A DNA stretch of 64,000 bases from the NCBI RefSeq assembly GCF_014193425.1, contig NZ_JACHZG010000001.1, positions 124,001 through 188,000 of the forward strand, read 5' to 3'. The notes below the pieces were generated by a model, which was not told the DNA's origin, searched no databases, and worked only from the letters and a program-made list of their open reading frames with translations. Numbering within the stretch: position 1 is the stretch's first letter; every line of letters begins with the position of its first letter. This stretch comes from Microlunatus antarcticus. Lineage in GTDB: Bacteria > Actinomycetota > Actinomycetes > Propionibacteriales > Propionibacteriaceae. Both the position numbers and the translations under genes were made by a program. Positions 31,624 to 47,318 of this stretch are shown here, piece by piece.

Positions 31624-31874
31624 AGGCTAGCGCGCAGTCCCTCACGCCACGGGGCGTCCGGCGTGCGTCGCCGGGGGTGGGAGGGCCCGGCGGGCTGCGC
31701 TGTTGAACTCGCCGAACCTGTGCGGTCGTCGAGCACCTCGACGACCAGCACTCGTGGTCTACCCCGTTCTCCGTCCGGACACGCACGGATGCGGCAAGGG
31801 TCCGCCGGTCCGCTCGGTAGGGTCGCACCAGCGGCGCCGCCGGACGGTGGCGTCCGCAGCGAGAGGTGTCCCCG
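31624..31874. promoter_or_regulatory. Divergent promoter region between GAF-ANTAR genes
   Basis: A 251-bp gap separates the minus-strand regulators A and B from the plus-strand regulator C and must contain their promoters. I could not assign a convincing -35/-10 pair. Downstream-most is GAGAGG, the ribosome site for the ATG at 31875. Confidence 0.45.
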
Positions 31875-32627
31875 ATGACCGGTAGTCCAGGAGCCCCTGC
31901 GCGAGACCCCCGACCTCCGAGCTCCGAGGTCGAGGCCGTGCGCGACCTGGCCGGGCAGCTGGGCCGGCTGGCTCGGACGCTGGAGGCCGAGGACGACACC
32001 GCCGCCATGCTCGACGAGGTCGTCGCGGCCGCGGTCCGGCTCATCCCAGGCGCCGAGGACGCCTCCATCAGCCTGGTGGTCGCGCGGCGCCAGATCTCCT
32101 CGCCCCACCGGACGGGCGACCTGCCGGGGAAGGTCGACGCCATCCAGACGGCGACGGCCGAGGGGCCGTGCCTGGACGCCGCGTACGAGCACCAGACCGT
32201 CCGGGTGCCGGACATGCGCCACGAGCGGCGCTGGCCCAAGTTCGCGCGAGAGGCCTACCAGGCCGGCGCCGGCAGCATGCTCTCGTTCCAGCTGTACGTG
32301 CAGGGCGACACCCTGGGCGCGCTGAACCTCTACAACCGGGCGGCGGGGGCCTTCGACGACGAGTCCGAAGAGGTCGGGCTGCTCTTCGCCGTCCATGCGG
32401 CGGTCGCCTTCGCCGATGCGCAGAAGCTGGACCACCTGGATCGCGCCGTCGCGAGCCGCGACCTGATCGGGCAGGCCAAGGGCATGCTCATGGAGCGCTA
32501 CCGCATCGACGGCGACGGCGCCTTCCGGGTGCTGGCCCGGGTCAGCCAGTCGACCAACCGGCCCCTGCGTGACGTCGCCCGTCAGCTCGTTGAGACCGGG
32601 CACCTCGACCTGGTCGAGGCGGACTGA
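31875..32627 (+). CDS. GAF-ANTAR regulator C
   Basis: A 250-residue protein. The GAF domain shows TATAEGPCLDAAYEHQTVRV and LGALNLYNRAAGAFDDES. The ANTAR domain shows RDLIGQAKGMLMERYRIDGD and QSTNRPLRDVARQLVETG, with the conserved aromatic and Ala residues that read RNA. ATG at 31875 has GAGAGG 8 nt upstream. It is probably the first gene of a plus-strand pair with regulator D. Confidence 0.9.
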   Translation: MTGSPGAPARDPRPPSSEVEAVRDLAGQLGRLARTLEAEDDTAAMLDEVVAAAVRLIPGAEDASISLVVARRQISSPHRTGDLPGKVDAIQTATAEGPCLDAAYEHQTVRVPDMRHERRWPKFAREAYQAGAGSMLSFQLYVQGDTLGALNLYNRAAGAFDDESEEVGLLFAVHAAVAFADAQKLDHLDRAVASRDLIGQAKGMLMERYRIDGDGAFRVLARVSQSTNRPLRDVARQLVETGHLDLVEAD

Positions 32628-32754
32628 CGCGACGACGACTGCGTCGGACTCCCCGCGCAGACGGTCGCACCGTGCAAGAATTTCGACCCTCAGGTCAGGA
32701 AGCGGCCGGGACCGTGGCCCGGCGACGCCGGCGCCCAAGCAGGAGCTGGCCCTC

Positions 32755-33465
32755 ATGGCCCCACCTCATCTCGACCACGCCCAGCGCTCGTTCGGCGTCT
32801 TCACCGCGCTCGTGCACGAGCCCTCGACCGCAGGGGGGCGGCTGCAGCGGGGTGTCGAGCTGCTCGCGAGGCTCGTCCCGGGCTGCGACCACGCGGGGGT
32901 CACGCTCCTGACGCCGGCCTTCGTGGAGAGCGTCGCCGCCACCGACGACGTCGTGGTGCGGGGGGACGCCTGGCAGCACGAGCTGAGCGAGGGGCCGGGC
33001 CTGGACAGCGTGCGAGGCCGGACGACGGTCGTCAGCCAGGACCTCCGCACCGACCCGCGCTGGCGCACCTGGGCCCCCCGCGTCGTGGACGGCCTCGGGG
33101 TGCGCTCGACGATGTCGGTCCTGCTCGAGCGCCACGAGGACGTCGTCGCGTCGCTCACGCTCTACGCCGACCGCCCGGACGTCTGGGACCCGGGCCGGCA
33201 GCAGCTCGCGACGGCACTGGCGAGCCAGCTCGCCGGGGCGAGCGCCGAGGCGAGGATGCTCGACGACCGTGAGCGCGCGCTCGTGTCCCGGGTCGGCCTG
33301 GGGCAGGCCCAGGGGATCGTGATGGAGCGGTTCGACCTGGGCGCGGACGAGGCGTACGACTACCTGCGTCGGCTGTCGCAGAGCACGCAGGTGGGGCTGC
33401 TGCAGCTCGCCGGGCACATCGTCCGGACCCGGGTGGTGCCGCCGCTGCCGGGCCGCTCCACGTAG
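32755..33465 (+). CDS. GAF-ANTAR regulator D
   Basis: A 236-residue protein. The GAF half contains LSEGPGLDSVRGRTTVVSQD and VLLERHEDVVASLTLYADRP, and the ANTAR half contains LVSRVGLGQAQGIVMERFDL and YDYLRRLSQSTQVGLLQLAG. It keeps the ANTAR spacing. The ATG at 32755 has AGGAG 9 nt upstream. It sits between regulator C and a sigma factor. Confidence 0.88.
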   Translation: MAPPHLDHAQRSFGVFTALVHEPSTAGGRLQRGVELLARLVPGCDHAGVTLLTPAFVESVAATDDVVVRGDAWQHELSEGPGLDSVRGRTTVVSQDLRTDPRWRTWAPRVVDGLGVRSTMSVLLERHEDVVASLTLYADRPDVWDPGRQQLATALASQLAGASAEARMLDDRERALVSRVGLGQAQGIVMERFDLGADEAYDYLRRLSQSTQVGLLQLAGHIVRTRVVPPLPGRST

Positions 33466-33480
33466 GCCGCGAGCCGGCCG

Positions 33481-33514
33481 GGGCGGTCGCCCCTAGGGGG
33501 GTACCCGACCGCCC
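33481..33514. terminator. Inverted repeat after GAF-ANTAR regulator D
   Basis: GGGCGGTCG (33481-33489) pairs with CGACCGCCC (33506-33514), enclosing a second palindrome CCCCTAGGGG (33490-33499). It lies 15 bp after the stop of regulator D, so a transcription end is likely; alternatively it is an operator for the sigma-factor gene. There is no T run. Confidence 0.55.
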
Positions 33515-33587
33515 GAGTCTGTGGTTCACTTCCTGCTGTGGCCAGCAGCGCGCCACGTTCGTACACACACGGACGGAAGAGCGCGCC

Positions 33588-34412
33588 ATGTCACTTCTCG
33601 CACCCCCTCTCCCCACCGTCTCCACCGGACGTGCCCCGACCCGTGGGTCGGATCCCGCCCAGCGTCTGGAGCTGGCCGAGCTGACCCTGGCGCGGCTGCG
33701 TGCCGCCCGGGTGGCGGACGAGGCCGGCCGCCAGGCGCTCTTCGAGGAGGTCGTGGTCTCCCACCTCTGGCTGGCCGACTCGGTCGCCCGCCGGTTCCGG
33801 GACCGCGGCGAGGACTCCGAGGACCTGCGTCAGATCGCCCGGTCCGGCCTGGTCGAGGCCTGTGCCCGCTTCGACCCCGACCAGGGCTCGTTCGCCGCTT
33901 TCGCCTTCCCCACGGTCACCGGGCTGGTCAAGCGCCACTTCCGGGACCACGGCTGGTCCATCCGGCCCTCGCGCCCCACCCAGGAGCTGTCCGCCGAGAT
34001 GTGGCGGCGCTGGCCGGAGGTCGCGCAGGCGGTGGGCGGCGAGCCGACCGAGCGCCAGCTGGCCGAGGTGCTGCGGGTGCCGCTCGACGACGTCCGGCGG
34101 GCACGTCGCGCCACGCAGGCGTACACGTGCAGCTCCCTCGACGCCCTGACCCACGACCACGAGAGCGACGAGCCGGACTCCGACCGGGCCGAGGCGCACG
34201 TGCTCGTGTCCTCGGTGTGGAAGGAGCTGACCGACGTCGAGCGGCGGCTGCTGCAGATGCGCTTCTTCGAGGAGCGGTCCCAGGCCGACATCGCGGTCGC
34301 GCTGGGCACCAACCAGATGCAGGTCTCCCGCATGCTCGCCCGGCTGCTCATGCGGCTGCGCGGGATGATCGGGTCCCTGGACGAGCCCACCGTCGCGTCC
34401 CACGCCGCCTGA
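33588..34412 (+). CDS. RNA polymerase sigma factor of the SigB/SigF/SigG group
   Basis: A 274-residue sigma-70-family protein with region 2 (SVARRFRDRGEDSEDLRQIARSGL; FDPDQGSFAAFAFPTVTGLVKRHFRDHGW), a region 3 helical part (LSAEMWRRWPEVAQAVGG) and region 4 (LTDVERRLLQMRFFEERSQADIAVALGTNQMQVSRML). The group serves general stress, sporulation or developmental regulons. No anti-sigma or anti-anti-sigma gene is adjacent, which is unusual for this group. Location after four ANTAR proteins suggests a common sensing block, which is an inference. Confidence 0.9.
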   Translation: MSLLAPPLPTVSTGRAPTRGSDPAQRLELAELTLARLRAARVADEAGRQALFEEVVVSHLWLADSVARRFRDRGEDSEDLRQIARSGLVEACARFDPDQGSFAAFAFPTVTGLVKRHFRDHGWSIRPSRPTQELSAEMWRRWPEVAQAVGGEPTERQLAEVLRVPLDDVRRARRATQAYTCSSLDALTHDHESDEPDSDRAEAHVLVSSVWKELTDVERRLLQMRFFEERSQADIAVALGTNQMQVSRMLARLLMRLRGMIGSLDEPTVASHAA

Positions 34413-34455: not shown

Positions 34456-35409
34456 GTGAGGATCCTGCTGTTCGACGTGCACGGCGGCTACACCGACGCG
34501 CTGCTCGCCGGGGCGCACGACTACGCGTTCCTGCCGGCGGTGGACGGCCGGGGCGGGCTGTCCCGCCTCGGCGCCCTGGCCCCGGCCCGGGCGCGCGAGG
34601 TCGACTCGGCCGAGCTCCGCGACGACCCGCCGGACGTCGTGCTCCTGCAGCGGCCCGAGGACGCGGCGACGATCGCGGATCGGACCGGCCTGCGGGCCGG
34701 GACGGACGTGCCGGCCGTGTTCCTCGAGCACAACACGCCCAAGGAGTCGGTGCCGAACACGCGGCACCCGCTCGCCGACGGTCCGATCCGGGTCGTCCAC
34801 GTCACCCACCTCAACGCCCTGCTCTGGGACTGCGGACGGACGCCGACGACGGTCGTCGAGCACGGGCTGCCGGACCCCGGCCTGCGCTACGTCGGCGACG
34901 TCGACCACCTCGCGTTCGTGGTCAACGAGCCCGTCCGCCGCTGGCGGGTGACCGGCACCGACCTGCTGCCGCGCTTCGCCCCGCTGGGGATCGACGCCTT
35001 CGGGATCGACGGCGACCTGCTCCCGGCCGCGCTCGACGACCAGCCCGGCGTGGCCTTCGCGGGCAACCTCAAGCCCCCGCAGCTGCGCGACGCCCTGGTC
35101 GCGCGGCGCGCGTACCTGCACCTCAACCGCTGGACCTCGCTGGGTCTGTCGCTGATCGAGGCCATGCTGCTCGGGCTGCCCGTCGTCGTCCTCGACACCA
35201 CGGTCGCCGCCCGGACGGTGCCCCCGGCCGCCGGGGCGATCTCGGCCGACCCGGACGTGCTGGTCGCCGCGGCACGCCGGCTGCTGACCGACCCGGACGA
35301 GGCCCGGGCCGCCGGGCTGGTGGCCCGGGAGGCGGCGCTCGCGCGGCACGGGCTGGCCCGGTTCCTGGGCGACTGGGACCGGGTGCTTGCCGAGGCCGTC
35401 GCCGGGTAG
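34456..35409 (+). CDS. GT4-like glycosyltransferase
   Basis: A 317-residue protein. LFLDVHG-type N-terminal strand (MRILLFDVHGGYTDALL), VEHGLPDPGLRYVGD mid-region, and the C-terminal SLGLSLIEAMLLGLPVVVLD donor-site block with the Glu-x7-Glu-like layout of GT4. The substrate is not evident. The next gene starts 9 bp after, encoding an MBL-fold enzyme. Confidence 0.8.
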   Translation: MRILLFDVHGGYTDALLAGAHDYAFLPAVDGRGGLSRLGALAPARAREVDSAELRDDPPDVVLLQRPEDAATIADRTGLRAGTDVPAVFLEHNTPKESVPNTRHPLADGPIRVVHVTHLNALLWDCGRTPTTVVEHGLPDPGLRYVGDVDHLAFVVNEPVRRWRVTGTDLLPRFAPLGIDAFGIDGDLLPAALDDQPGVAFAGNLKPPQLRDALVARRAYLHLNRWTSLGLSLIEAMLLGLPVVVLDTTVAARTVPPAAGAISADPDVLVAAARRLLTDPDEARAAGLVAREAALARHGLARFLGDWDRVLAEAVAG

Positions 35410-35418
35410 GGAGCAGGG

Positions 35419-36183
35419 GTGCCCGCCGCCGATCACGTCCAGACCGTCCGCGACGTCGTGCCGGGGGTCCACCTGGTCACCCACGGCCACACCAACTGCT
35501 ACGTCGTCGAGGGCGAGGACGGCGTCACCCTCGTCGACGCGGCGTACCCCCGGACGTGGTCGGCGGTGCGGCAGTGCCTGGCCGACGTCGGTCGCCGCGT
35601 GTCCGACGTCCGGGGCCTGGTGCTGACCCACGGGCACTTCGACCATGTCGGCTTCGCCGGGCGCCTGCAGCGCGACCACGGCGTGGAGGTCTGGGCCGGC
35701 GCGGGGGACGCCTTCCTGGTGCGCCACCCGTACCGCTACCGCCCGGCCCGGCCGCGCCTGACCTACCCGCCGGTGCACCCGCGGTCCTGGCCGGTGCTGG
35801 GCTCGATGGTGCGGGCCGGCGCGCTGCGCGTGCCCGGCGTGACGGCCGACCACCTCGTCGGAGGCCGGACGTCCCTCGACCTGCCGGGCCGCCCCGAGCT
35901 GGTCCCGGCGCCCGGCCACACGGACGGGGAGCTGGTGGTGCACCTGCCCAACCACGGCGCGGTGCTGACCGGCGACGCGCTCGTCACCCTGGACCCGTAC
36001 ACCGGGCGGCGGGGCCCGCGGGTGGTCGCCCGGGCGGCGACGAACGACGCCCGGCTCGCCCTGGACTCCCTCACGGCCGTCGCCGAGCTCGACGTCGCCG
36101 CCGTGCTGCCCGGCCACGGCGAGCCGTGGCTCCGCGGCAGCCGGGCGGCGGTCGACGCCGCCCGCGCGGCCGGCGTCGCCTGA
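35419..36183 (+). CDS. MBL-fold metallohydrolase
   Basis: A 254-residue enzyme with LTHGHFDHVGFAGRL (zinc motif), PAPGHTDGELVVHLPNHGAV and VLPGHGEPW. It belongs to the broad MBL-fold hydrolase class; reaction unknown. It starts with GTG just after a GGGAGCAGG ribosome site and follows the GT4 gene closely. It is convergent with the SDR gene, only 9 bp apart. Confidence 0.83.
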   Translation: MPAADHVQTVRDVVPGVHLVTHGHTNCYVVEGEDGVTLVDAAYPRTWSAVRQCLADVGRRVSDVRGLVLTHGHFDHVGFAGRLQRDHGVEVWAGAGDAFLVRHPYRYRPARPRLTYPPVHPRSWPVLGSMVRAGALRVPGVTADHLVGGRTSLDLPGRPELVPAPGHTDGELVVHLPNHGAVLTGDALVTLDPYTGRRGPRVVARAATNDARLALDSLTAVAELDVAAVLPGHGEPWLRGSRAAVDAARAAGVA

Positions 36184-36192
36184 CCCTCTAGA

Positions 36193-36936
36193 TCACGGCC
36201 AGGAGGTCTCGACCGAGCTCGCGACGACGAGCTCGCGCACCTCGCAGCCGGCGGGCTGGGACAGGGCGAAGACGACCGCGGCGGCCGTGTCCTCCGGCCG
36301 GTTGAGCACCGCGTCGGCACCGGGCTTGTACTGCGCGTCCCGCTCGTCGAAGAAGTGCGTGTGCATGCCGCCGGGGATCAGCAGCGTGACGCCGACCTGG
36401 CCGGCGGTCTCGGCGGCCAGCGACCGGGTGAAGCCGACCACGCCGAACTTGGACGCGCAGTACGCGGTCGCGTCGCCGACGGCCTTGATGCCGAGCGTCG
36501 AGGCGACCGTGACGATGCGGCCGTGGCTGGCCTTGAGGTAGGGCAGCGCGGCGCGCGCGACGGCGGCGGTGCCGAACAGGTTCACCATGACGATCCGCTC
36601 CCACGTGGGACCGTCGATCCCGTCGAGCGGTGCGGGGAAGTCGATGCCCGCCGCGGTCAGGACGCCGTCCAGCCGCCCGCCGTGGGCCTCCACGATGTCG
36701 CGGACGGCCGCCTCGGCCGCACGCGGGTCGGACAGGTCCACCTGCGCGTACGCGACGTCTCCGGCGGGCGGCGCGAGGTCGAGCACGAGCGGGGTGCCCC
36801 CGGCGGCCAGGACGGCGGCGACCGTGGCCGCGCCGAGGCCGGACGACCCGCCGGTGATCAGCACGGTGCCGAGCGTCGTGCGCTCGCGCGACGACGCGGC
36901 GGTGTCGGTGGCGGGGGGCGTCAGGGTCGACGTCAT
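36193..36936 (-). CDS. Short-chain dehydrogenase/reductase (SDR)
   Basis: A 247-residue classical SDR. The cofactor motif TGGSSGLGAATVAA (TGxxxGxG), LTAAGID, catalytic Ser in VASTLGI, and YCASK (Tyr-x3-Lys) are all present. It is a classical, not extended, SDR, so it is not HldD, the ADP-heptose epimerase. The ATG overlaps the HldE stop (ATGA) with AGGAG 5 nt upstream, so it is the last gene of the heptose operon and probably modifies the sugar or is an unrelated passenger. Confidence 0.85.
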   Translation of the reverse strand: MTSTLTPPATDTAASSRERTTLGTVLITGGSSGLGAATVAAVLAAGGTPLVLDLAPPAGDVAYAQVDLSDPRAAEAAVRDIVEAHGGRLDGVLTAAGIDFPAPLDGIDGPTWERIVMVNLFGTAAVARAALPYLKASHGRIVTVASTLGIKAVGDATAYCASKFGVVGFTRSLAAETAGQVGVTLLIPGGMHTHFFDERDAQYKPGADAVLNRPEDTAAAVVFALSQPAGCEVRELVVASSVETSWP

Positions 36937-38414
36937 GAGATCTCCTCGGTGTGGTTCGGACGTGCAGGAACGGGTGCCGCCGACGCGGTCGCACGGGACC
37001 GGTCGACGAGGCGGGTGGTGGAGTAGCCGTCGACGACGGGCAGCAGGACGACGCGCCCGCCCCCCTCCTCGACGACCCGGGCCTCCGGGATGTCCTGGCC
37101 GGCGTAGTCGCTGCCCTTGACCCAGACGTCGGGCCGGAGCTCGGCGAGGAGCTCGGCGGGCGTGGCCTCGTCGAAGACGACGACCCCGTCGACGCAGGCC
37201 AGGGCGGACAGGACCCGGGCGCGGTCCTCGGCCGTGACCAGCGGCCGGTCCGGCCCCTTGGCCCGGCGGACGGAGGCGTCGGAGTTGATGCAGACGACGA
37301 GCGCGTCGCCCAGGGAACGGGCGGCGGTCAGCAGGCTCACGTGGCCCCGGTGCAGCAGGTCGAAGCACCCGCCGGTCGCGACCACGGTCCCGCCGGCGGC
37401 GCGGACCTGCGCCACCAGCGCGAAGGCGTCGGCCGGCTCGGGCCGGTCGGAGGACGTCGCGTACGGGACCTCGGTCGAGACGGCGGTCGCGGCGCCGGCC
37501 AGCACGAACGCGGTGGCGCTCGCGACCGCACGGCGGACCGCGGTGCCCGGGGTCGCGCCCTCGAGCAGGGCGACGGCGGCGGCGACGGCGAAGGCGTCAC
37601 CGGCCCCGCAGGTGTCGAGCCGACCGGCGTGCGGGGCGCGGCCGGCCGCGTCGACGCGCTGTCCTGAGCCTGTCGAAGAGGTCTCGGGCTCGTCGAGCGG
37701 GACGTGCGTGTCGAGGTCGCCCTCGACCAGCAGGGCCCCGCGCGCGCCGAGCGTGACGGCGACGGCCTCGGCCCGCCAGAGCCGGCCGAGCACGCGGCCC
37801 TGGTCGGCGGTGCCGTCCACGGCCCCCAGCGCTCTGGCCTCGCTGGCGTTCGGGGTGACCAGGGCGCAGCCCGCGACCGGAGCGGTCCCGCGGGGGTGCG
37901 GGTCCCAGACCACGGGGACCTGGCGGGCCCGGGCGGTCAGCCGCTCGCGGATCCCGTCGAGCGCCGTGACCCCGCGGCCGTAGTCGGCGACCAGGACGGC
38001 TCCGGCGCGGTCGAGGGCGTCGTACGCCGCCTGCGGGACCGGGGCGTCGAGCGCCCGACCGCGGCCGACGTCGAGCCGGGTCACCGGGACGCCGTTGGCC
38101 AGCACGCGGGTCTTGCGGCTCGTGCCGCCGGACAGCGGCAGCGCGACCACCTCGACGAGCCCGCCGAGGAGGCTGCGGAGGCGGTCGGCGGAGTCGTCGG
38201 CCCCGATCGCCGTGACGAGCACGACCTCGTGGCCCGACCGGGCGGCGAGCAGCGCGGCGAGGCCGGCACCGCCGGGACGCTGCCACTCGCGGGCGACGTC
38301 GACCACCGGCACCGGGGCGTCGGGGGCGAGGCGCTCCGAGCTGCCCTCGAGGTCGACGTCGAGCAGGGAGTCGCCGACGACGACGAGCGGGCCGACCGCG
38401 CGGGTGGTGCTCAC
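36933..38414 (-). CDS. hldE: Bifunctional heptose kinase/adenylyltransferase (HldE), copy 1
   Basis: A 493-residue protein with both HldE domains. The N-terminal PfkB/ribokinase domain has RPGGAGLAALLAARSG and DTCGAGDAFAVAAAVALL (catalytic Asp). The C-terminal nucleotidyltransferase has GGCFDLLHRGHVSLL and VKGSDYAGQDI. HldE phosphorylates heptose-7-phosphate at C1 and, after phosphatase action, transfers AMP to give ADP-heptose. A run SSTGSGQ between the domains comes from a known-looking dispersed repeat. The GTG overlaps the GmhA stop. There is a second, separate HldE at 45825. Confidence 0.92.
   Translation of the reverse strand: MSTTRAVGPLVVVGDSLLDVDLEGSSERLAPDAPVPVVDVAREWQRPGGAGLAALLAARSGHEVVLVTAIGADDSADRLRSLLGGLVEVVALPLSGGTSRKTRVLANGVPVTRLDVGRGRALDAPVPQAAYDALDRAGAVLVADYGRGVTALDGIRERLTARARQVPVVWDPHPRGTAPVAGCALVTPNASEARALGAVDGTADQGRVLGRLWRAEAVAVTLGARGALLVEGDLDTHVPLDEPETSSTGSGQRVDAAGRAPHAGRLDTCGAGDAFAVAAAVALLEGATPGTAVRRAVASATAFVLAGAATAVSTEVPYATSSDRPEPADAFALVAQVRAAGGTVVATGGCFDLLHRGHVSLLTAARSLGDALVVCINSDASVRRAKGPDRPLVTAEDRARVLSALACVDGVVVFDEATPAELLAELRPDVWVKGSDYAGQDIPEARVVEEGGGRVVLLPVVDGYSTTRLVDRSRATASAAPVPARPNHTEEIS
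37661..37678 (-). repeat. CCTGAGCCTGTCGAAG-type dispersed repeat inside hldE
   Basis: The plus strand reads GTCCTGAGCCTGTCGAAG, a sequence that I recall as a common dispersed repeat of many high-GC genomes. It lies within the coding sequence of hldE copy 1 and adds a short Ser/Thr/Gly-rich stretch between domain elements. A second copy was not found in this window. Confidence 0.5.
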
Positions 38415-39070
38415 GCGACGACCGGGGGCTGGACGCCGAGCGCGTCGTCGAGGGCGATGCAGAGCGCGTGCACGAGGCTCAGGTGGATCTCCTGGACCGT
38501 CGCGGTCGTGGGTGCCTCGACGGCGACCGCCTCGTCGGCGAGCGCGGTGAGCGGGTTGGGGCCGGGCCCGGTGAGCGCCCACACGCTCACGCCGGCCCGG
38601 CGGCCGGCCCGGGCCGCGGCGAGCACGTTCGGGCTGGTGCCGCTGGTGGAGAAGGCGACGAGCACGTCCCCGGGGCGCCCCCAGGCGGTGACCTGGCGGG
38701 CGAACACCTCGTCGAAGCCGTAGTCGTTCGCGATGGCCGTGTGCGCCGCGGAGTCGGCGGACAGCGCGACGGCGGGCAGGGGCCGGCGGTCGTGGCGGAA
38801 CCGTCCCACCAGCTCGCCGGTCAGGTGCTGCGCCTCGGCGGCGCTGCCGCCGTTGCCGCAGGCGATCAGGTGCGCCCCGGCGTCGTAGCGCCGGGCCAGC
38901 TCGGCCCCCCAGGCGCTGACCGTGGCGGCGTACGCCCCGGCCCGGCCCGCCGCCTCGGCGAGCGCTGCGAGGTGGTCGGTGACGAGAGCGAGGCGGTCGC
39001 TGGCGCGTACGGGCGGAACGGGCTCGGTGGCACGGGCGGACGGGGGGCTGACCGTGGTGTCAAGCGACAT
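38411..39070 (-). CDS. gmhA: Phosphoheptose isomerase (GmhA)
   Basis: A 219-residue SIS-domain isomerase. IACGNGGSAAEAQH, TAIANDYGFDEVFARQV and FSTSGTSPNVLAAA are the GmhA hallmarks. It turns sedoheptulose-7-phosphate into D-glycero-D-manno-heptose-7-phosphate, the first step of nucleotide-heptose synthesis. The ATG at 39070 has GAGAGG 6 nt upstream and lies 11 bp inside the glycosyltransferase gene; the stop overlaps hldE. A GTG at 39106 is less likely. Confidence 0.92.
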   Translation of the reverse strand: MSLDTTVSPPSARATEPVPPVRASDRLALVTDHLAALAEAAGRAGAYAATVSAWGAELARRYDAGAHLIACGNGGSAAEAQHLTGELVGRFRHDRRPLPAVALSADSAAHTAIANDYGFDEVFARQVTAWGRPGDVLVAFSTSGTSPNVLAAARAGRRAGVSVWALTGPGPNPLTALADEAVAVEAPTTATVQEIHLSLVHALCIALDDALGVQPPVVA

Positions 39071-40145
39071 GGTCGACCTCTCGGGGACGGGCCGGGACCG
39101 GGTCACGGTCGTCGACGGGCGGGACGCGGCGGAGCTCCGCCACGGCGGCGACGACGTCAGCGGGGCTGACGCCGTCCAGGCAGGGGTGTCCGGGCACGGG
39201 GCAGTGCCGCGCCCGGGTCAGGCGGCAGGCCGCGTCCTGGTCGCCGAGCAGGACGACCGGGACGCCGTACGGGGCCCAGCGCTCCGGCGGGACGACCGGG
39301 GCGAAGAGGGAGACGACCGGGGTGCCCACGGCCGCGGCCAGGTGGGCCGGACCGGTGTTGGGCGCCACGACGACCTCGGCACCCGCGAGGACCGCGGCGA
39401 GGCCGGCGAGGTCGACGGCGCCGGTGAGGTCGAGGGCGAGCCCGCCCGCCACGAGGCCGGTGAGCGTGGACTCGCCGGGGGACCCGGTCACGACCACGCG
39501 GTGCCCGGCCTCGACGAGCGCGGCGACCAGCGCCCGGCTGTGCTCGGCCCCGGGCCGGCGGGCCGGGGCGTCGGCGCCCGGGTGGTAGACGACGTACGGG
39601 TCCGGTCCGACGAGGGCGGAGACGTCGGGGAGCGGCCGGCGGACGGCGAGCGTGGCCGGCCCGTCGAGACCGAAGCCGGCGGCGCGGGCGAGCGACAGCG
39701 CCCGCTCGCTCTCGGGCACGTCGGCCGGGACCTCGGGCATCCGGTGGCGCAGGTCGAGCAGGGATCCGGGGTAGTCGTCGCTGATCGCGCCGACCCAGCC
39801 GACCCCGGCGAGGCGCAGGAGCAGGGCCAGGGGCAGCGGCGACTGGTGGAACGAGGTGAGGATCAGCGCCGCGTCGACGCCGGCCCTACGGACGGTCTCC
39901 ACGAACGCGCCGATCGCGGCGGGGTCCACGGGCCCGGGGTCGGCGACGATCCAGGGCGCGTCGAGCTCGAGCACGTCGTCGACCCCGGGCAGCAGCCGCG
40001 CGACCGCGGAACGTCCCCGGCCGACGAGCAGCGTGACCCGCGCCGACGACGCGGCCACGGCCCGGACGGCAGGACCCGAGAGCAGGACGTCGCCCACGCT
40101 GTCGAGCCGGGCGACGAGGACGTGGCCGCCGGTCGGGGCGCTCAC
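39060..40145 (-). CDS. Glycosyltransferase family 9 (heptosyltransferase-like), operon copy
   Basis: A 361-residue GT-B protein. ARLDSVGDVLLSGPAVRAV opens with the GT9 GD motif and the C-terminal donor site has VVVAPNTGPAHLAAAVGTPV and CPVPGHPCLDGVSPADVVAA. GT9 members of LPS systems transfer ADP-heptose (WaaC/WaaF type). Here it sits between gmhB and gmhA, so an ADP-heptose donor is likely. The stop is 11 bp inside gmhA. The GTG overlaps the gmhB stop (GTGA). Confidence 0.87.
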   Translation of the reverse strand: MSAPTGGHVLVARLDSVGDVLLSGPAVRAVAASSARVTLLVGRGRSAVARLLPGVDDVLELDAPWIVADPGPVDPAAIGAFVETVRRAGVDAALILTSFHQSPLPLALLLRLAGVGWVGAISDDYPGSLLDLRHRMPEVPADVPESERALSLARAAGFGLDGPATLAVRRPLPDVSALVGPDPYVVYHPGADAPARRPGAEHSRALVAALVEAGHRVVVTGSPGESTLTGLVAGGLALDLTGAVDLAGLAAVLAGAEVVVAPNTGPAHLAAAVGTPVVSLFAPVVPPERWAPYGVPVVLLGDQDAACRLTRARHCPVPGHPCLDGVSPADVVAAVAELRRVPPVDDRDPVPARPREVDHVA

Positions 40146-40711
40146 GGGGCGACCTGTTCGCCGAGGGCGAGCGCCAGCGCGACGGCCTCGCGGAGGTCGT
40201 GCGCCACCAGGGCGTGCTCGCGAGCGTGCGCGACCTCCTCGGCCCGGGTGACCGGCGTCGGGACGAGGACGGCGCGGGCCCCGGCGGCGAGAGCGGCACC
40301 GACGTCGGCGCCGATGTCGCCGATCACCACGCAGTCCGCCGGCTCGACCCCGAGGGCCGCAGCGGCGGCGAGCACCATCCCGGGCGCCGGCTTGCGGCAG
40401 GCGCACCCGTCGGCCGCGCCGTGGGGGCAGACCTGCCACGTCCCGAACGGTCCGAGCAGCGCGTCGACCCGGCCGTTGACCGCCGCGAGCTGGGCGGGGG
40501 TGATCAGCCCGCGGGCGATGCCGGACTGGTTGCTGACCACGCCGAGGCCGAGGCCCCGGCGACGCAGGTCGTCGAGCACCTCCCGCGCCCCGTCGACCGG
40601 GGCGACCAGGTCGGGGTCGGCGTTGTAGGGGACGTCGTGCACGAGCGTGCCGTCACGGTCGAACAGGACCGCTCGCACACCTCGGGGCCGCTCGTCGACG
40701 CCCGGGCTCAC
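40142..40711 (-). CDS. gmhB: D-glycero-D-manno-heptose-1,7-bisphosphate 7-phosphatase (GmhB-like HAD)
   Basis: A 189-residue HAD-superfamily phosphatase. AVLFDRDGTLVHDVPYN carries the nucleophile and acid Asp pair, VVSNQSGIARGLIT the second motif, CPHGAADGCACRKPAPGM the four zinc-binding-type cysteines/His typical of GmhB, and VIGDIGADVGAALAAGA the fourth motif. It removes the C7 phosphate of heptose-1,7-bisphosphate between the two HldE reactions. The GTG overlaps the stop of the upstream GT4. Confidence 0.9.
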   Translation of the reverse strand: MSPGVDERPRGVRAVLFDRDGTLVHDVPYNADPDLVAPVDGAREVLDDLRRRGLGLGVVSNQSGIARGLITPAQLAAVNGRVDALLGPFGTWQVCPHGAADGCACRKPAPGMVLAAAAALGVEPADCVVIGDIGADVGAALAAGARAVLVPTPVTRAEEVAHAREHALVAHDLREAVALALALGEQVAP

Positions 40712-41949
40712 GCCGGGCCCAGGGCGGGCAGCAGGCTCGCCCGGTGCTTCGGCGCGACCCCGGCGACCAGCGCCTCCTCGTAGACCTCGGCCGTCGCCGT
40801 GGCGACCGCGTCCCACGAGTAAAGCGACCGGGCCCGACGGACGCCGGCCCGCCCGTACGCCCGGCGCCGGGCCGGGTCGGCGAGCAGCCCGCGCAGGGCG
40901 GTGGCCAGCGCGGCCGGGTCCTGCGGGGGCACCAGGGCGCCGGTCTCGCCGTCGGCGACGGAGTCGAGCATCCCGCCGACGGCCGAGGCGACGACCGGGA
41001 CGCCGCAGGCCATGGCCTCGAGGGGGACGAGACCGAACGGCTCGTACCAGGGCGTGCAGACGACGACGTCGCCGGTGCTGAGCAGGGCGGGCATGAGGAA
41101 GTGCCCGACCTGGCCGATGAGGTGGACGCGGTCGGCGACCCCCAGCCCGGCGGCGAGCGCCTGGAGGCGGAGCTGCTCGGCCTCGACGTGCCCGTCGTCC
41201 ACGTGACCGCCGGCGACGACGAGCTCGACCCCGGGCAGGTCGACGAGCGACTCGACGACGGTGGCGTACCCCTTGCGCGGGACGAGCCGCCCGACGCTGA
41301 CGATCCGGTACGGCTGGCGGCGGGGCGGGTCGTCCAGCGGGGCCGCGTCGGGGGTGAAGTGGCGGACGTCGACGCCGCAGGGGACGACGTCGACGCGCTC
41401 GAGGTCGACCCCCATCGCGGCGAGCTCGGCGACCTCGTCGCGGCAGGTGGCCACGACGCCGGCGGCGCGCGTGGCGACGGCGAGCTCGACGTCGACGCGC
41501 TCGGCCGGGCTGGTGTCCGCGTCACCCTGGTGGCGTTGCTTGACCGAGCCCAGCGCGTGGAACGTGACGAACGTGGGGATGCCCAGACCGCGCGTCGCGC
41601 GCGTCGCCGCCCAGCCGGACATCCAGAAGTGGGCGTGCACGACGTCCGCCGGGCGGCTCTGCAGGTGGCGGCGGAGCGCGTCCGCGAACCTCGGCATGAG
41701 GGGCCAGAGGTCGTCCTTGGCCAGCCGCTCGGCCGGGCCCGCGTCGAGGTGGACGACGTCGTAGCCGTCGTCGGTCCGGACCGACGACGGGAGCTCGACG
41801 GCGTCCCGGCGCGTGTAGACGACGACGTCGTGGCCGAGCCGCGTCAGCCCGCTCGCGAGCTCGGCGACGTGGACGTTCTGCCCGCCGGCGTCGACCGCGC
41901 CGATCGCGGCGAGGGGGCTCGCGTGCTCGGACACCAGAGCGATCCGCAC
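40708..41949 (-). CDS. GT4 glycosyltransferase (first gene of heptose operon)
   Basis: A 413-residue GT-B protein. VDAGGQNVHVAELASGLTRL at the N-terminus and WYEPFGLVPLEAMACGVPVV (E-x7-E block) at the C-terminus are the GT4 signatures, close to sucrose-phosphate-synthase or trehalose/mannose-type transferases. GTG at 41949 has AAGGAG 5 nt upstream. It heads the tightly coupled set gmhB, GT9, gmhA, hldE, SDR. Acceptor unknown. Confidence 0.88.
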   Translation of the reverse strand: MRIALVSEHASPLAAIGAVDAGGQNVHVAELASGLTRLGHDVVVYTRRDAVELPSSVRTDDGYDVVHLDAGPAERLAKDDLWPLMPRFADALRRHLQSRPADVVHAHFWMSGWAATRATRGLGIPTFVTFHALGSVKQRHQGDADTSPAERVDVELAVATRAAGVVATCRDEVAELAAMGVDLERVDVVPCGVDVRHFTPDAAPLDDPPRRQPYRIVSVGRLVPRKGYATVVESLVDLPGVELVVAGGHVDDGHVEAEQLRLQALAAGLGVADRVHLIGQVGHFLMPALLSTGDVVVCTPWYEPFGLVPLEAMACGVPVVASAVGGMLDSVADGETGALVPPQDPAALATALRGLLADPARRRAYGRAGVRRARSLYSWDAVATATAEVYEEALVAGVAPKHRASLLPALGPA

Positions 41950-42059
41950 ACCATCTCCTTCGCCCGACGTCTGATCTGAGTACCTAGTACCACCCGGGGC
42001 CTGAACCAAACCGCCCCGACGTTACGGGGTCGTGACCGGAGGGTTCCACGTCTGCGGGG
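41950..42059 (-). promoter_or_regulatory. Probable promoter region of the heptose operon
   Basis: A 110-bp AT-richer gap separates this operon from the upstream GT9 genes. On the minus strand GTACTAGGTAC is a short inverted repeat that could overlap a -10 element. The 5' boundary also contains the end of the upstream GT9 gene. I give low weight to any single hexamer. Confidence 0.4.
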
Positions 42060-43043
42060 TCACGCCCGGAGCAGACGCTCGGCGGCCCCGAGCACGTCGT
42101 CGACCGTCACGGCGAGCAGGGCCGGGTCGGGCTCGGGGGCGAAGACGTCGCCGCGGCGCACGCGCTCGTCGGTGAGGACGACGTGCGGCCCGCCGGGCGG
42201 CGGGCCCCAGCGGGCGACCGGGGCGGGGCCGAACAGCACGACGGACGGCGTCCCGTACGCGGTGGCCAGGTGCGCCGCCCCGGTGTCGACCGTGACGACC
42301 AGCGCGGCGTCGGCCACCAGGGCGGCCAGCTCGGCCAGACCCGTACGCCCGGCCAGGTCCGCGCCCTGCGGCAGCCCGGCGGCCACGGCGATCGCTCCCG
42401 CCCGTTCCTGCTCGGCCGCGGAGCCGGTGAGCACGACCCGGTGCCCGGCCGCCGTCAGCGTGCGGGCCACGGCGGCGAAGCGTTCGGCGGGCCAGGAGCG
42501 GGACCCGTACGCCGCCCCGACGTGGACGACGACCGCACCGGGTGCCGGGCTCGGGACGGAGGGACGTCGCAGGCCGAGCGCCGCCGGGTCGTCGGGGTCG
42601 TCGGCGTCGCGGGCGAGCCCGTGGTGGCGCAGGAGATCGAGCCACCGGAGGCGTTCGCCGACCTCCTCGACCCATGCCGGCCCGTCCCAGCCCGGCGCCG
42701 CGTGCCCGACCCGGTGCCGCGGCGCGAGCGCGTCGAGGCGGGCGTGGCTCTGCGGTCCGCGGCCGTGGAGGTTCACCGCGAGGTCGGGCGGACCCCCGCC
42801 CACCTCGGGCAGCGGCTCGTCGAGCCCGGCCACCGGGAGCAGGGTGTCGACGGCGTCGACGAGGTCGACGACCGGGCCCAGCCACGCGGGCGCGGCGAGG
42901 ACGACACGGTGCTCCGGCCGGGCCCGGCGCAGCGCCCGCAGGGCGGGCACGGAGACCAGCAGGTCACCCAGGCCCAGCGCGCGCAGCACGAGGGCGACGG
43001 GGCGGTCGTCCTGCGCTCGGGCGACCACGGCGGGGACGCTCAC
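42060..43043 (-). CDS. Glycosyltransferase family 9, second upstream copy
   Basis: A 327-residue GT9 protein. LRALGLGDLLVSVPALRALR, VNLHGRGPQSHARLDAL, VHVGAAYGSRSWPAERFA and VVTVDTGAAHLATAYGTPSV are the family blocks. GT9 enzymes usually use ADP-heptose. The GTG overlaps the stop of the preceding GT9 (GTGA), so the two are coupled, and it precedes the heptose operon by 110 bp. Confidence 0.87.
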   Translation of the reverse strand: MSVPAVVARAQDDRPVALVLRALGLGDLLVSVPALRALRRARPEHRVVLAAPAWLGPVVDLVDAVDTLLPVAGLDEPLPEVGGGPPDLAVNLHGRGPQSHARLDALAPRHRVGHAAPGWDGPAWVEEVGERLRWLDLLRHHGLARDADDPDDPAALGLRRPSVPSPAPGAVVVHVGAAYGSRSWPAERFAAVARTLTAAGHRVVLTGSAAEQERAGAIAVAAGLPQGADLAGRTGLAELAALVADAALVVTVDTGAAHLATAYGTPSVVLFGPAPVARWGPPPGGPHVVLTDERVRRGDVFAPEPDPALLAVTVDDVLGAAERLLRA

Positions 43044-44140
43044 GACAGGTCCCGTGGGGTGTCGAGGAGGTCGAGCACGTCGGCGAGCACCGGCTCGACC
43101 CCGACGTCGGCCACCCACGACTCCTGGTGGTCGCAGCGGCGGTCGTCGCCCTGCGCGAGGGGGGCGCCGCAGCGTGGGCAGTGCAGGACCCAGCCGGGCA
43201 GCACCCGGTGCCGGCGGCGGGCGACCGGCGCGGCGTTGATCATGTTCGGGCCCCAGAACACCCCGACCGTCGCCGTGCCGACGGCCATGGCCACGTGGCG
43301 CGGGCCGGAGTCGTTCGCCAGCACCACGTCGCTGTCCTCGAGGAGGTCGACCAGCGCGGGCAGGCCGATCGTGTCGGCGACGGAGGTGACGAGCGGGCTC
43401 TCCGCGTACGCGACGATCGCGGCCGCGGCGTCACGGTCGCTCGCGTCCCCGACCACGACGACCTCGACGCCCCGCTGGGCCACGGCGGCCGCGACCTCGG
43501 CGAAGCGTCGCGCCGGCCAGCGGCGCCGGGGGTCGGTGGCGCCGGGGTGCACGACGAGCCGCGGCGCGGCCCCTGGACGGGGACGGCGGTTGGCCCGGCC
43601 GCGGAGCCGCGCCTCCAGCTGGACCGCCGGGGCGCCCGCGAGCGCCGCGACCTCGAGCCAGCGCTGCGTCTCGTGCTGGAAGTAGCGGTAGGGGAGGTCG
43701 CGCTCCAGCTGCGGCGCGCCGGGGGCGGCGGTCCCCACGGTGTGGCGGGCCCCCAGCCGCAGCAGGAACGGGTTGGAGTTGCCGCCGCCCCCGTGGGCCT
43801 GGACGGCGAGGTCGAGGTCGAGCCCGCGGACCCGGGCGACGTACGCGTCGGTCGCCGCCGGGTCGACGCCTGCGCCCTCGCGCACGCCCGGGTGGACGGG
43901 CAGGACCTCGACCGCGCTGAAGGGGGCGGGCCGGTCGGCCAGCAGCGCCGCGTGGGACGGCATGCCGAGCAGGACGATCTCGGCCCCGGGGTACGCCGCG
44001 GCGAGCGACTCGACGGCGGGCAGCACGAACATGAGGTCGCCGATGCCCCCGCCGCGCAGCACCGCGATCCGCCGGACGTCGTCGAAGCGCGGCCCCAGCT
44101 CGCCGACGAGGGTGCCGGACGGGAACGACGGGGGCTGCAC
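43040..44140 (-). CDS. Glycosyltransferase family 9 with C-terminal cysteine cluster
   Basis: A 366-residue GT9 protein: VLRGGGIGDLMFVLPAVESL, VVHPGATDPRRRWPARRFAE and LANDSGPRHVAMAVGTATVG. Between the last block and the end lies HCPRCGAPLAQGDDRRCDH, a C-x2-C-x11-C-x-H set that may bind zinc, not usual in GT9. The GTG at 44140 has no ribosome site but follows a TATCCT -10-like hexamer by 7 bp, so a leaderless mRNA is likely. It is divergent from dedA. Confidence 0.85.
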   Translation of the reverse strand: MQPPSFPSGTLVGELGPRFDDVRRIAVLRGGGIGDLMFVLPAVESLAAAYPGAEIVLLGMPSHAALLADRPAPFSAVEVLPVHPGVREGAGVDPAATDAYVARVRGLDLDLAVQAHGGGGNSNPFLLRLGARHTVGTAAPGAPQLERDLPYRYFQHETQRWLEVAALAGAPAVQLEARLRGRANRRPRPGAAPRLVVHPGATDPRRRWPARRFAEVAAAVAQRGVEVVVVGDASDRDAAAAIVAYAESPLVTSVADTIGLPALVDLLEDSDVVLANDSGPRHVAMAVGTATVGVFWGPNMINAAPVARRRHRVLPGWVLHCPRCGAPLAQGDDRRCDHQESWVADVGVEPVLADVLDLLDTPRDLS

Positions 44141-44200: not shown

Positions 44201-44815
44201 TTGACGCAGCTCGTCGCCTGGCTGCTGGCCCTGCCGCCGGCGCTCGTGCTGGTGGCCGCGCTCGTGCTCCCGGCCGTGGAGGCCTCCGCCCTGGTCGGGC
44301 TGGTCGTGCCCGGGGAGACGGCCGTCTTCGTGGCCGGCGTCGTCGCGCACGGGGGCCGGCTCCCGCTCGCCGCGGTCATCGCCGCTGCGGCCGTGGGGGC
44401 GGTCGTGGGCGACCAGATCGGCTACCGGCTGGGCCGGCGCTGGGGTCCGGGCCTGGTCGGCCGGCTGCCCGTCCGGCTCCGCGGCCGCGCGGAGCAGGTG
44501 ACGGGCTTCGTCGCCCGCCGCGGTCGCTGGGCCGTGCTGCTCGGTCGCTGGACCGCGCTGCTGCGGGCCCTCGTGCCCGGCGTGGCCGGGGCCAGCGGAA
44601 TGGCGAAGCGTGACTTCCTCGTGTTCAACGTCCTCGGCGGCGTGACCTGGGCCGTCGCGATCGCCTCGCTGGGCTACGGGGCCGGGGCGGCGTACGCGTC
44701 CGTGCTGACCCGGGTGAACCACGCGAGCGAGATCGCCGTGGGGGTCGTCGTCGTGCTGGTCGTGGCCTGGGTGCTCGTCCGACGCGTGCTGCGGAGGCGG
44801 GGCGCGGAGCTGTGA
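44201..44815 (+). CDS. DedA-family membrane protein
   Basis: A 204-residue integral membrane protein of the DedA/VTT family. PGETAVFVAGVVAHGG, VGDQIGYRLGRRWG and RGRWAVLLGRWTALLRALVPGVAGAS are the recognised blocks, with Arg and acidic residues in membrane segments. Some members flip undecaprenyl phosphate back across the membrane. The best start is TTG at 44201, with GGGAGAGG 7 nt upstream. The neighbour UppP also acts on undecaprenyl carriers, so lipid-carrier recycling is a reasonable role. Confidence 0.87.
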   Translation: MTQLVAWLLALPPALVLVAALVLPAVEASALVGLVVPGETAVFVAGVVAHGGRLPLAAVIAAAAVGAVVGDQIGYRLGRRWGPGLVGRLPVRLRGRAEQVTGFVARRGRWAVLLGRWTALLRALVPGVAGASGMAKRDFLVFNVLGGVTWAVAIASLGYGAGAAYASVLTRVNHASEIAVGVVVVLVVAWVLVRRVLRRRGAEL

Positions 44816-44899: not shown

Positions 44900-45736
44900 A
44901 TGAACTTCTGGCAGGCGATCCTTCTCGGCGTCGTCGAGGGCATCACCGAGTTCCTGCCGGTGTCGAGCACCGGGCACCTCACGATCGTGGAGAAGCTGCT
45001 CGGCCTCAGCGTCGACGACCGGGGCGTGACCGCCTTCACCGCGGTCATCCAGGTCGGCGCGATCCTCGGCTCGATCGTCTACTTCCGTGGCGACATCATC
45101 CGGCTCGCGACCGCCTGGTTCCGGGGGCTGGCGAACAAGGCGGCGCGCGCCGAGCGCGACTACAAGATGGCCTGGCTCGTCATCGCCGGGTCGATCCCGA
45201 TCGGGATCGTCGGCTTCGCGGCCCGTGACCTCATCACCGGGCCGCTGCGCAGCCTCTGGTTCGTCGTGGCCGGGCTCGTGGTCTGGAGCTTCGTCATGAT
45301 CCTCGCCGAGCGCTACGGCCGGCAGGACCGCGGCGAGGAGAGCCTGACGCTCAAGGACAGCCTGGTCGTCGGGTTGTTCCAGTGCATCGCGCTGATCCCC
45401 GGCGTCTCGCGCTCGGGGGCGACAATCAGCGCCGGCTTGTTCCGGGGGCTCGACCGCGTGTCGGCCACCCGCCTCGCGTTCTTCCTGGCCATCCCGGCGC
45501 TGACCGCGGCGGGCGTCTTCGAGGCGGTCGGCAGCGCCGACGACATCGCCTCCTCGGTCGGCTGGGGCCCGACGATCGTCGGCACCGTCGTCAGCCTGGT
45601 CGTCGCGCTCGCGGCCATCGCGTGGCTGCTGCGGATCGTGGCCAAGTTCCCCATCACGGTCTTCGTGGCCTACCGGCTGGTCCTCGCGGCCGTCGTCGCC
45701 GTCCTGCTGCTGACCGGCGTGGTCGACGCCCGCTGA
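44900..45736 (+). CDS. uppP: Undecaprenyl-diphosphate phosphatase
   Basis: A 278-residue protein with multiple membrane helices. GVVEGITEFLPVSSTGHLTI carries the catalytic Glu-rich motif and IALIPGVSRSGATISAGLFR the PGxSRSxAT motif. It converts undecaprenyl diphosphate to the monophosphate, freeing the lipid carrier for cell-wall and glycan synthesis. It is followed by the second HldE gene on the same strand and preceded by DedA. Confidence 0.95.
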   Translation: MNFWQAILLGVVEGITEFLPVSSTGHLTIVEKLLGLSVDDRGVTAFTAVIQVGAILGSIVYFRGDIIRLATAWFRGLANKAARAERDYKMAWLVIAGSIPIGIVGFAARDLITGPLRSLWFVVAGLVVWSFVMILAERYGRQDRGEESLTLKDSLVVGLFQCIALIPGVSRSGATISAGLFRGLDRVSATRLAFFLAIPALTAAGVFEAVGSADDIASSVGWGPTIVGTVVSLVVALAAIAWLLRIVAKFPITVFVAYRLVLAAVVAVLLLTGVVDAR

Positions 45737-45824: not shown

Positions 45825-47318
45825 ATGCAGGCCGCAGGGTGGGAAGACGGCGGGCGCGGGCGGCTGCTCGGGCCGGAGCTGCCGCTGGCGCTGCGCGACC
45901 GCGCCCCCCGGGTCACGGTGGTCGGCGACCCGATCCTCGACGGCTGGTGGCGCGGGCGTACGGAGCGCATGTCCCGTGAGGCGCCGGCGCCCGTGGTCGA
46001 GGTCTTCGAGCGCCGTCACGTGCCGGGCGGGGCAGCCAACACGGCGATGAACCTGGCCGCCCTCGGGGCGCAGGTCGGTCTGGTCGGCGTCGCGGGCGAC
46101 GACGAGGCCGGCCGCATGCTGCACAGCCTCCTCGAGGCCGCCGGGGTCGACGTCTCCGGCCTGGTCCTCGCCCCCGAGGTCCGCACGACCACGAAGGTCC
46201 GGATCGTCGGCGGCGAGCAGATCCTGCTGCGCATCGACGAGGGCACCGACGTCGCGCCGCCGGAGGAGCTCCGCGACCGTGCGGCCGTCGCCGCCGCGGC
46301 GGTCCTGCGGCGCAGCGACGCCGTCGTGGTCTGCGACTACGGCTCCGGCCCCTCGCCCGCCCTGGTGGAGGCGCTGCTGCGCGACCGGCCGGCGCTGCTG
46401 GTCGTGGACGCGCACGACCCCGCGCCCTGGGCCCAGGTCGCCCCCGACCTCGTCACCCCGAACGCGGGGGAGACGTTCCGGCTGCTCGGCCGGACGCCGC
46501 CGACGTCGGCGCGCGTCGAGTCGGTGCACGCCGCCGCCGCCGAGATCCTCGAGCGCACCGGTGCGACGCAGGTCGTCGTCACGCTCGACGCGGAAGGCGC
46601 CGTGCTGCTCGACGCCACCGGGGTCCTGCACCGCACGACGGCGCGCCCGGTGCTGGACAAGCAGGCGAGCGGGGCGGGCGACACGTTCGTCGCCGCGCTC
46701 ACCCTGGCCCGCGCCGCCGGCGTCGAGCTGCCCGTGGCGCTGGAGCTGGCGCAGGCGGCGGCCGACGTGGTGGTGCACCGCTCGGGCACCTCGGTCTGCA
46801 CCGCCGACGACCTGGCCGACCACCTCGGGCGGACGTCGGAGCGGGTCATGCCCCACGCGGAGCTGGCGCTGCGGGTGCAGGCGGAGCGGGCGGCCGGCCG
46901 TCGGGTCGTGCTGACCAACGGCTGCTTCGACGTTCTGCACCGCGGGCACACGACCTCGCTGGCCCAGGCCGCCCGGCTGGGCGACCTGCTGGTCGTCGCG
47001 GTCAACAGCGACGACTCGGTCCGCCGGCTCAAGGGCCCCCAGCGGCCGATCAACACCGCCGCGGACCGGGCGAGCGTGCTCGCCGCGCTCAGCTGCGTCG
47101 ACTACGTGACCGTGTTCGAGACCGACACCCCCATCCCGCTGCTGGAGCTGCTGCAGCCCGACGTCTACGCCAAGGGCGGCGACTACACGCCCGAGATGAT
47201 GGCCGAGACCCCCGTGGTCCGCGCGTACGGCGGCGAGGTCCGGATCCTCGACTTCGTCCCGGCGCACTCCACGACGGACGTCGTCACCCGGATCCGGAGC
47301 CTCGCGCCCGAGGCCTGA
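45825..47318 (+). CDS. Bifunctional heptose kinase/adenylyltransferase (HldE), copy 2
   Basis: A 497-residue HldE: N-terminal ribokinase-like domain with VVGDPILDGWWRGRTERMSR, VPGGAANTAMNLAALGAQVG and LDKQASGAGDTFVAALTLA (catalytic Asp); C-terminal nucleotidyltransferase with LTNGCFDVLHRGHTTSLAQA and YAKGGDYTPEMMAETPVVRA. This copy is closer to proteobacterial-type HldE than copy 1: its N-terminal opening has the canonical RP/ER set and GGAANTA motif. ATG at 45825 has AGGAG 5 nt upstream; GTG at 45822 is possible. It is not in the heptose operon, so the two copies may differ in regulation or substrate. Confidence 0.92.
   Translation: MQAAGWEDGGRGRLLGPELPLALRDRAPRVTVVGDPILDGWWRGRTERMSREAPAPVVEVFERRHVPGGAANTAMNLAALGAQVGLVGVAGDDEAGRMLHSLLEAAGVDVSGLVLAPEVRTTTKVRIVGGEQILLRIDEGTDVAPPEELRDRAAVAAAAVLRRSDAVVVCDYGSGPSPALVEALLRDRPALLVVDAHDPAPWAQVAPDLVTPNAGETFRLLGRTPPTSARVESVHAAAAEILERTGATQVVVTLDAEGAVLLDATGVLHRTTARPVLDKQASGAGDTFVAALTLARAAGVELPVALELAQAAADVVVHRSGTSVCTADDLADHLGRTSERVMPHAELALRVQAERAAGRRVVLTNGCFDVLHRGHTTSLAQAARLGDLLVVAVNSDDSVRRLKGPQRPINTAADRASVLAALSCVDYVTVFETDTPIPLLELLQPDVYAKGGDYTPEMMAETPVVRAYGGEVRILDFVPAHSTTDVVTRIRSLAPEA

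Follow-up and report, generated by a model that had tools for sequence, protein, structure and literature searches.

Why should a Gram-positive cell without lipopolysaccharide (LPS) carry a full gene set for activated heptose? The question is posed by an operon on the minus strand at 36193–44140 of the window, by which we mean the whole 64,000-nucleotide stretch of Microlunatus antarcticus DNA analyzed here (bases 124001–188000 of contig 1 of a 4.37 Mb genome; G+C 66–79% in 2 kb steps). As judged from gene content and order, the cluster is probably a rearranged relative of the cwg-type cell-envelope glycan operon of Streptomyces. Its product is most likely a nucleoside diphosphate (NDP)-D-glycero-D-manno-heptose, predicted to serve a lipid-linked envelope glycan.

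The operon and its likeness to cwg

The genes are transcribed in the order GT9A, GT9B, GT4, GmhB, GT9C, GmhA, HldE1 and a classical short-chain dehydrogenase (SDR). GT9A (43040–44140), GT9B (42060–43043) and GT9C (39060–40145) are glycosyltransferases of the heptosyltransferase family (PF01075 at 5.6e-24, 2.8e-28 and 2.7e-22, respectively), and GT4 (40708–41949) is a glycosyltransferase matching PF00534 at 7.4e-37. GmhB (40142–40711) is a predicted heptose bisphosphate phosphatase, GmhA (38411–39070) a predicted sedoheptulose-7-phosphate isomerase, and HldE1 (36933–38414) a predicted heptose-7-phosphate kinase joined to a heptose-1-phosphate nucleotidyltransferase. The SDR (36193–36936; PF00106 at 1.6e-35 for an over-long open reading frame, ORF) starts with the ATG at 36936 and overlaps HldE1 by 4 bases. 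With gene starts chosen by overlap and start codon, neighboring genes overlap at six of the seven junctions, by 4 bases at five and by 11 at one; the seventh, GT9B–GT4, is a 110-base gap. The preliminary description of this DNA had placed GmhA, HldE, GmhB, a GT4 and a GT9 in one minus-strand operon, with two more GT9 genes directly upstream; the profile matches and overlapping junctions bear this out, and its outer ends coincide with the derived gene ends. The suggestion that GmhB is missing, since the ORF at 36193 is an SDR, was rejected, as GmhB sits at 40142–40711. In a same-genus genome, a manganese catalase gene lies on the opposite strand between GT9B and GT4 (L048:9830–10732).

In the accessible text of PMC6767563, cwg is an operon of 12 genes with a cell wall glycan as its predicted product; vancomycin induces it, and it depends in part on sigma-E. 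In S. coelicolor it spans SCO6179–6190, with cwgH a putative phosphoheptose isomerase and cwgI a putative bifunctional synthase/transferase (PMC5839063, as far as its accessible text goes). The same source prints cwgD as a 'dehydratase', at odds with a phosphatase, and the name is taken here as a carried-over annotation. The gene order in streptomycete loci is epimerase, carbamoyltransferase, GT2, GmhB, GT9C, GT4-like, GT4, GmhA, HldE and GT9B. Positions were matched through this order and the printed names of cwgH and cwgI. Counterparts in the window cluster cover seven of the first ten positions (D to J): GmhB (cwgD), GT9C (cwgE), a CwgF-like glycosyltransferase, GT4 (cwgG), GmhA (cwgH), HldE (cwgI) and GT9B (cwgJ). 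Identity to the proteins of Streptomyces flaveolus (locus L130) is 63% for GmhB, 60% for GT9C, 56% for GT4, 60% for GmhA, 55% for HldE1 and 50% for GT9B.

The CwgF-like GT4-type gene lies at 34456–35409 on the plus strand, opposite to and convergent with the operon (PF00534 at 1.5e-08), and its product is 48% identical over 318 residues to that of the sixth L130 cluster gene. Four glycosyltransferases, as counted in the preliminary description, are indeed present, but this fifth had been overlooked. Between it and the operon, a metallo-beta-lactamase-fold protein (35419–36183, plus strand; PF00753 at 1.3e-28) is a possible associate, being a neighbor in two same-genus genomes as well. Directly before the CwgF-like gene, window 31866–34412 holds two tandem GAF-ANTAR regulator genes followed by a sigma-70-family factor.

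The window cluster departs from cwg in several respects. Gene order differs, and counterparts of CwgA (epimerase), CwgB (carbamoyltransferase) and CwgC (GT2) are absent from the cluster; the carbamoyltransferase C-terminal domain PF16861 has no match in the genome. Extra to the window are the SDR, GT9A, a DedA-family protein, an undecaprenyl-diphosphate phosphatase (UppP) and a second HldE (HldE2). The S. coelicolor cwg promoter, as printed in the accessible part of PMC6767563, is found ahead of the cluster in L130 (28 of 29 letters) and in S. coelicoflavus (L140, 26 of 29), and is absent from a further locus, L090, where 20 of 29 letters match at best.

Relatives of the cluster are widespread. 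A scan of named genomes with the HldE1 alignment matched at least 597 stretches, and 518 of those listed encode a relative; the best 80 of the 518 were kept, so that counts among them are not those of a random sample, and some of these loci end at contig ends. The genera include Streptomyces, Amycolatopsis, Nocardia, Actinomadura, Mycobacterium, Nonomuraea and Geodermatophilus, among others. Beside HldE1, the 80 loci carry GmhA in 79, GT9B in 75, GT9C in 73, GmhB and an extended-SDR epimerase in 69 each, GT4 in 68, a carbamoyltransferase in 66, a classical SDR in 54, and HldE2 and GT9A in 1 each. A search for such neighborhoods across actinobacterial genomes had been proposed as a check; among these best 80 loci the same set recurs, with GmhA in 79 and GmhB in 69.

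Among sampled genomes, HldE1 has matches at E ≤ 1e-20 in 19 of 147 genomes of the order and at 1e-40 in 39 of 296 of the phylum, the window's genome being counted in each. A single match of at least 480 bits to the cwg-type HldE profile is found in 27 of the 296, again including the window's genome and leaving out G159, G174 and G228, each of which has two adjacent half-length matches summing to more than 500 bits. An HldE is present in five of the seven genomes sampled from the window's genus, and these same five hold a GmhA of 158–162 bits; the other two have no HldE, with a GmhA match of 24 bits or none.

Pathway, sugar and acceptor

NDP-D-glycero-D-manno-heptose is made from sedoheptulose 7-phosphate via isomerase, kinase, phosphatase and nucleotidyltransferase steps, a route also given in PMC11461863 (accessible text). 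The full set of these enzymes is encoded here, and the motif stretches of their solved relatives are present. Going by family, GmhA would convert sedoheptulose 7-phosphate to D-glycero-D-manno-heptose 7-phosphate, the HldE kinase domains would form the 1,7-bisphosphate, GmhB would strip the 7-phosphate, and the HldE nucleotidyltransferase domains would yield ADP-heptose or perhaps another NDP-heptose. Less certainly, GT9A, GT9B and GT9C may add heptose to an undecaprenyl-linked oligosaccharide, to which the GT4 enzymes may add other sugars; DedA and UppP may serve recycling of the lipid carrier, and the SDR may modify a sugar.

The cluster proteins match their families far beyond chance. The transferase half of HldE1 passes the TIGR02199 cut-off (1.8e-56, 189.9 bits against 181.5), and the protein also matches the Pfam kinase and nucleotidyltransferase domains. 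Among solved structures, its closest relatives are 5x9q (deposited as a putative cytidylyltransferase) and, on the kinase side, 4e84, a heptose-7-phosphate kinase; the kinase half retains the GAGD stretch. GmhA can be aligned with the solved phosphoheptose isomerases 5i01 and 1x92. On contig 7, a candidate for a further GmhA was rejected, as it scores 20.9 bits to TIGR00441. GmhB is over the cut-off of TIGR01656 (103 bits, 3.7e-29) and can be aligned with the heptose bisphosphate phosphatases 4pnh and 2gmw, the DRDG, NQSG and Cys-His stretches included, which we take to be functional motifs. GT9B can be aligned with the ADP-heptose LPS heptosyltransferase II 1psw, and a stretch near the C-terminus is conserved as NTGPAH in GT9C, DTGAAH in GT9B and DSGPRH in GT9A.

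Several observations weigh against a heptose-bearing envelope glycan. The pathway chemistry is drawn from gene families, and many strict cut-offs are missed: GmhA reaches 158.9 bits (9.2e-47) of 209.45 for TIGR00441, GmhB 116.6 of 178 for NF006506, the HldE1 kinase half 105.8 of 345 for TIGR02198, the whole HldE1 and HldE2 proteins 263.6 and 365.4 of 521, and all three GT9 proteins fall below the equivalog cut-offs for LPS heptosyltransferases. No polymerase, flippase or wall-attachment gene was recognized in the 35 window ORFs scanned with Pfam, a subset of the genes that includes some wrong-frame ORFs. Pattern scans found no sigma-E-like promoter before GT9A or GT4 and no conserved regulatory site at the window cluster. 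UppP and DedA lie near the cluster in the genus only, and in none of the 80 best loci. Family membership of the enzymes is clear from their sequences, but with these cut-offs missed the sequences do not pin down the exact substrates.

As to the form of the sugar, the best genome match to the HldD model TIGR02197 is 124 bits against a cut-off of 274.6, with none over it. Because HldD is lacking at this level, the D-glycero-D-manno form is expected and plausible, as the preliminary description had it, but the operon's SDR, which it did not name, could alter the sugar. The nucleotide is not settled by sequence. According to the accessible text of PMC11573728, Arg at position 5 of (F/L)XXGRSTT (the STTR5 rule) predicts broad nucleotide use. 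Neither protein has this arginine: HldE1 reads VVDGYSTT, with Tyr, and HldE2 FVPAHSTT, with His. Among HldE1-type matches, the residue is R in 40, Y in 35, H in 8 and S in 3 of the 86 readable out of 107, pieces of one gene possibly being counted twice. HldE1-type members may differ in nucleotide use, since this residue varies.

The absence of LPS, assumed from the outset, is upheld: LpxC has no match in the genome, which is 95.19% complete, and LPS is therefore not the acceptor. In LPS, the acceptors of GT9 enzymes are lipids; this, together with the lack of a recognized wall-attachment gene among the scanned ORFs, suits the idea that a membrane glycolipid or proteins, and not a wall polymer, receive the heptose. 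We consider it unlikely, since GT9B reaches just 19.7 bits of the 200 for the autotransporter heptosyltransferase model TIGR04414, and the homologous operon is described, albeit as a prediction, as one for a cell wall glycan (PMC6767563, accessible text). For a cell lacking LpxC, a surface glycan that bears heptose is still the best reading, and the synteny with cwg strengthens it. A CDP-glycerol glycerophosphotransferase gene of the teichoic-acid type lies at 27683–28789, 8 kb from the cluster.

HldE2, GT9A and the divergent group

The preliminary description knew a single HldE. HldE1 is there as it said, but a second complete protein, HldE2, lies close by and went unnamed, as did the SDR, DedA and UppP. 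The plus-strand group divergent from GT9A consists of DedA (VTT-domain membrane protein, 44201–44815; PF09335 at 5.3e-17), UppP/BacA (44900–45736; PF02673 at 7.5e-81, and NF001392 over cut-off) and HldE2 (45825–47318; TIGR02199 192.6 bits, over cut-off). DedA beside GT9A is kept in two same-genus genomes. A sigma-E-like site before DedA (44122 on) was set aside, as the strict pattern occurs seven times in the window and the site is not kept in two same-genus genomes. About 3 kb past HldE2 there is an aldehyde dehydrogenase (ORF 50246–51667), and in three relatives such a gene lies between HldE2 and GT9A (L132:14760–16145, L155:8366–9730 and L049:12906–14270). A tRNA-Pro(cgg) predicted antisense within the window ORF (51467–51560), with the same anticodon as the tRNA at 762–837, is probably false.

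HldE2 fits the HldE model NF008454 better than HldE1 does (365.4 against 263.6 bits), and the two are 42% identical. In an arbitrarily rooted tree of 45 HldE sequences, 32 HldE1-type rows split with 100/100 support from 13 rows comprising HldE2 and the E. coli and Azospirillum proteins, and the 11 HldE2 rows form one clade (99/97). The split and the clade indicate that HldE1 and HldE2 are old paralogs, with no recent duplication.

HldE2 also has a recurrent partner. Of 12 HldE2 loci, nine found through HldE1-led searches, two through another search and one being the window, 11 hold GT9A at 45% identity or more; the exception, L157, has a 32% match. Seven have a cwg-type core with HldE1 in the same stretch: the window, L047 and L048 (same genus), L049 (same family), L132 (Amnibacterium), L155 (genome G154, another family) and L175 (Arthrobacter). 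It can not be claimed that HldE2 occurs only alongside HldE1, because nine of the 12 loci came from HldE1-led searches and six phylum genomes have a full-length match of 319–346 bits, the HldE2 level, as their sole full-length one, with none of 480 bits or more.

Two same-genus genomes, G001 and G116, retain the kinase half of HldE1 alone (L050:9593–10369 and L052:9425–10201), with GmhA elsewhere and a whole HldE2 at another locus with two GT9 genes. Since a whole HldE2 and GmhA are kept there while HldE1 is reduced to half, we infer that HldE2 can serve the same pathway. These two genomes also accord with an explanation in which HldE2 is the sole true heptose enzyme and HldE1 has diverged to act on a related sugar phosphate, the operon making some other activated sugar. 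The 100/100 split places the proteins on opposite sides, and the HldE1 kinase half scores less than HldE2 for TIGR02198 (217.6 bits for HldE2), both being under the cut-off. However, the HldE1 transferase half passes TIGR02199, its kinase half keeps GAGD, and GmhA accompanies HldE1 in 79 of the 80 best loci, which hold HldE2 in 1. Such drift is quite improbable.

HldE2 and GT9A may form a further heptosyl module that was joined to the cwg core. A wider proposal, put forward tentatively and with more doubt than confidence, is that the cwg glycan is a heptose-containing, undecaprenyl-linked envelope polymer that is carbamoylated in many species; in the window's lineage the separately inherited HldE2–GT9A module, beside DedA and UppP, would contribute either a different nucleotide-heptose or an additional heptosyl step, giving two parallel heptose-activating enzymes in one Gram-positive cell.

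At 1e-5, and with the low-complexity filter of BLAST weakening the query, HldE1 has homologs in 55 plasmid records, two of which fall below 1e-50. Sets of related heptose genes occur on streptomycete plasmids together with genes for a carbamoyltransferase and an epimerase. On Streptomyces plasmid pFRL5 (L180:5410–7371), a 653-residue rfaE2 product, encoded with a carbamoyltransferase, a GT9, an epimerase and a HAD hydrolase, is by its length possibly a tridomain heptose synthetase. The least probable alternative, that the heptose ends up in a small secreted molecule and not in an envelope glycan, can draw on these plasmid sets and on sedoheptulose 7-phosphate being a precursor of the septacidin and hygromycin B heptoses of Streptomyces (Tang 2018, cited in PMC10948575), but is opposed by a core kept amid glycosyltransferases in many actinobacterial genera, by the cell-envelope stress control of the streptomycete operon (PMC6767563, accessible text) and by UppP and DedA adjoining the cluster in the genus.

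Comparison with known systems

The preliminary description's reading, a heptose-bearing surface glycan or glycolipid in a Gram-positive cell, is partly supported. The cluster is no unexplained oddity, because cwg is published, 27 of 296 sampled phylum genomes have a single match of at least 480 bits to the cwg-type HldE profile, and tridomain NDP-heptose synthetases have been reported in actinobacteria (Tang 2022). NDP-heptose synthesis outside Gram-negatives is likewise already published (commentary PMC11461863, accessible text). With the cwg operon and these synthetases already in print, the window cluster is a variant within a known kind of system. The word 'heptose' is absent from the main text of PMC6767563 and from that of PMC13011467, which discusses cwg. 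No explicit published link between cwg and heptose and no description of an HldE2–GT9A module was found in the literature searched, most subscription papers lying outside it.

The heptose reading bears on a known stress target. In Streptomyces, cwg responds to envelope stress and is described as a predicted wall glycan operon only (PMC6767563, accessible text), and under the heptose reading a simple sugar analysis could test for its product. Relatives of cwg occur in nocardiae, mycobacteria, amycolatopses and many soil actinobacteria. If the reading is true, Gram-positive bacteria would join the producers of NDP-heptose, which mammalian ALPK1 senses, and the pairing of HldE enzymes provides a natural experiment on the evolution of nucleotide choice.

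The cluster shares the first three enzymes of the Gram-negative LPS pathway for ADP-heptose (GmhA-HldE-GmhB-HldD). It differs in having no HldD over the cut-off, no LpxC, a second HldE, and GT9 proteins below the heptosyltransferase cut-offs. With the actinobacterial tridomain synthetases (Tang 2022) it has in common the predicted synthesis of NDP-heptose in an actinobacterium. Unlike in these enzymes, the isomerase and the kinase/transferase are separate chains here, their genes overlapping by 4 bases; the GmhA–HldE1 interval is open in frame in one of the 79 named loci that have both. The septacidin and hygromycin B pathways also draw heptose from sedoheptulose 7-phosphate in actinobacteria, as proposed for the window. 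In contrast to these, no antibiotic assembly genes were recognized among the scanned ORFs, and the window genes stand amid glycosyltransferases in a widely conserved core.

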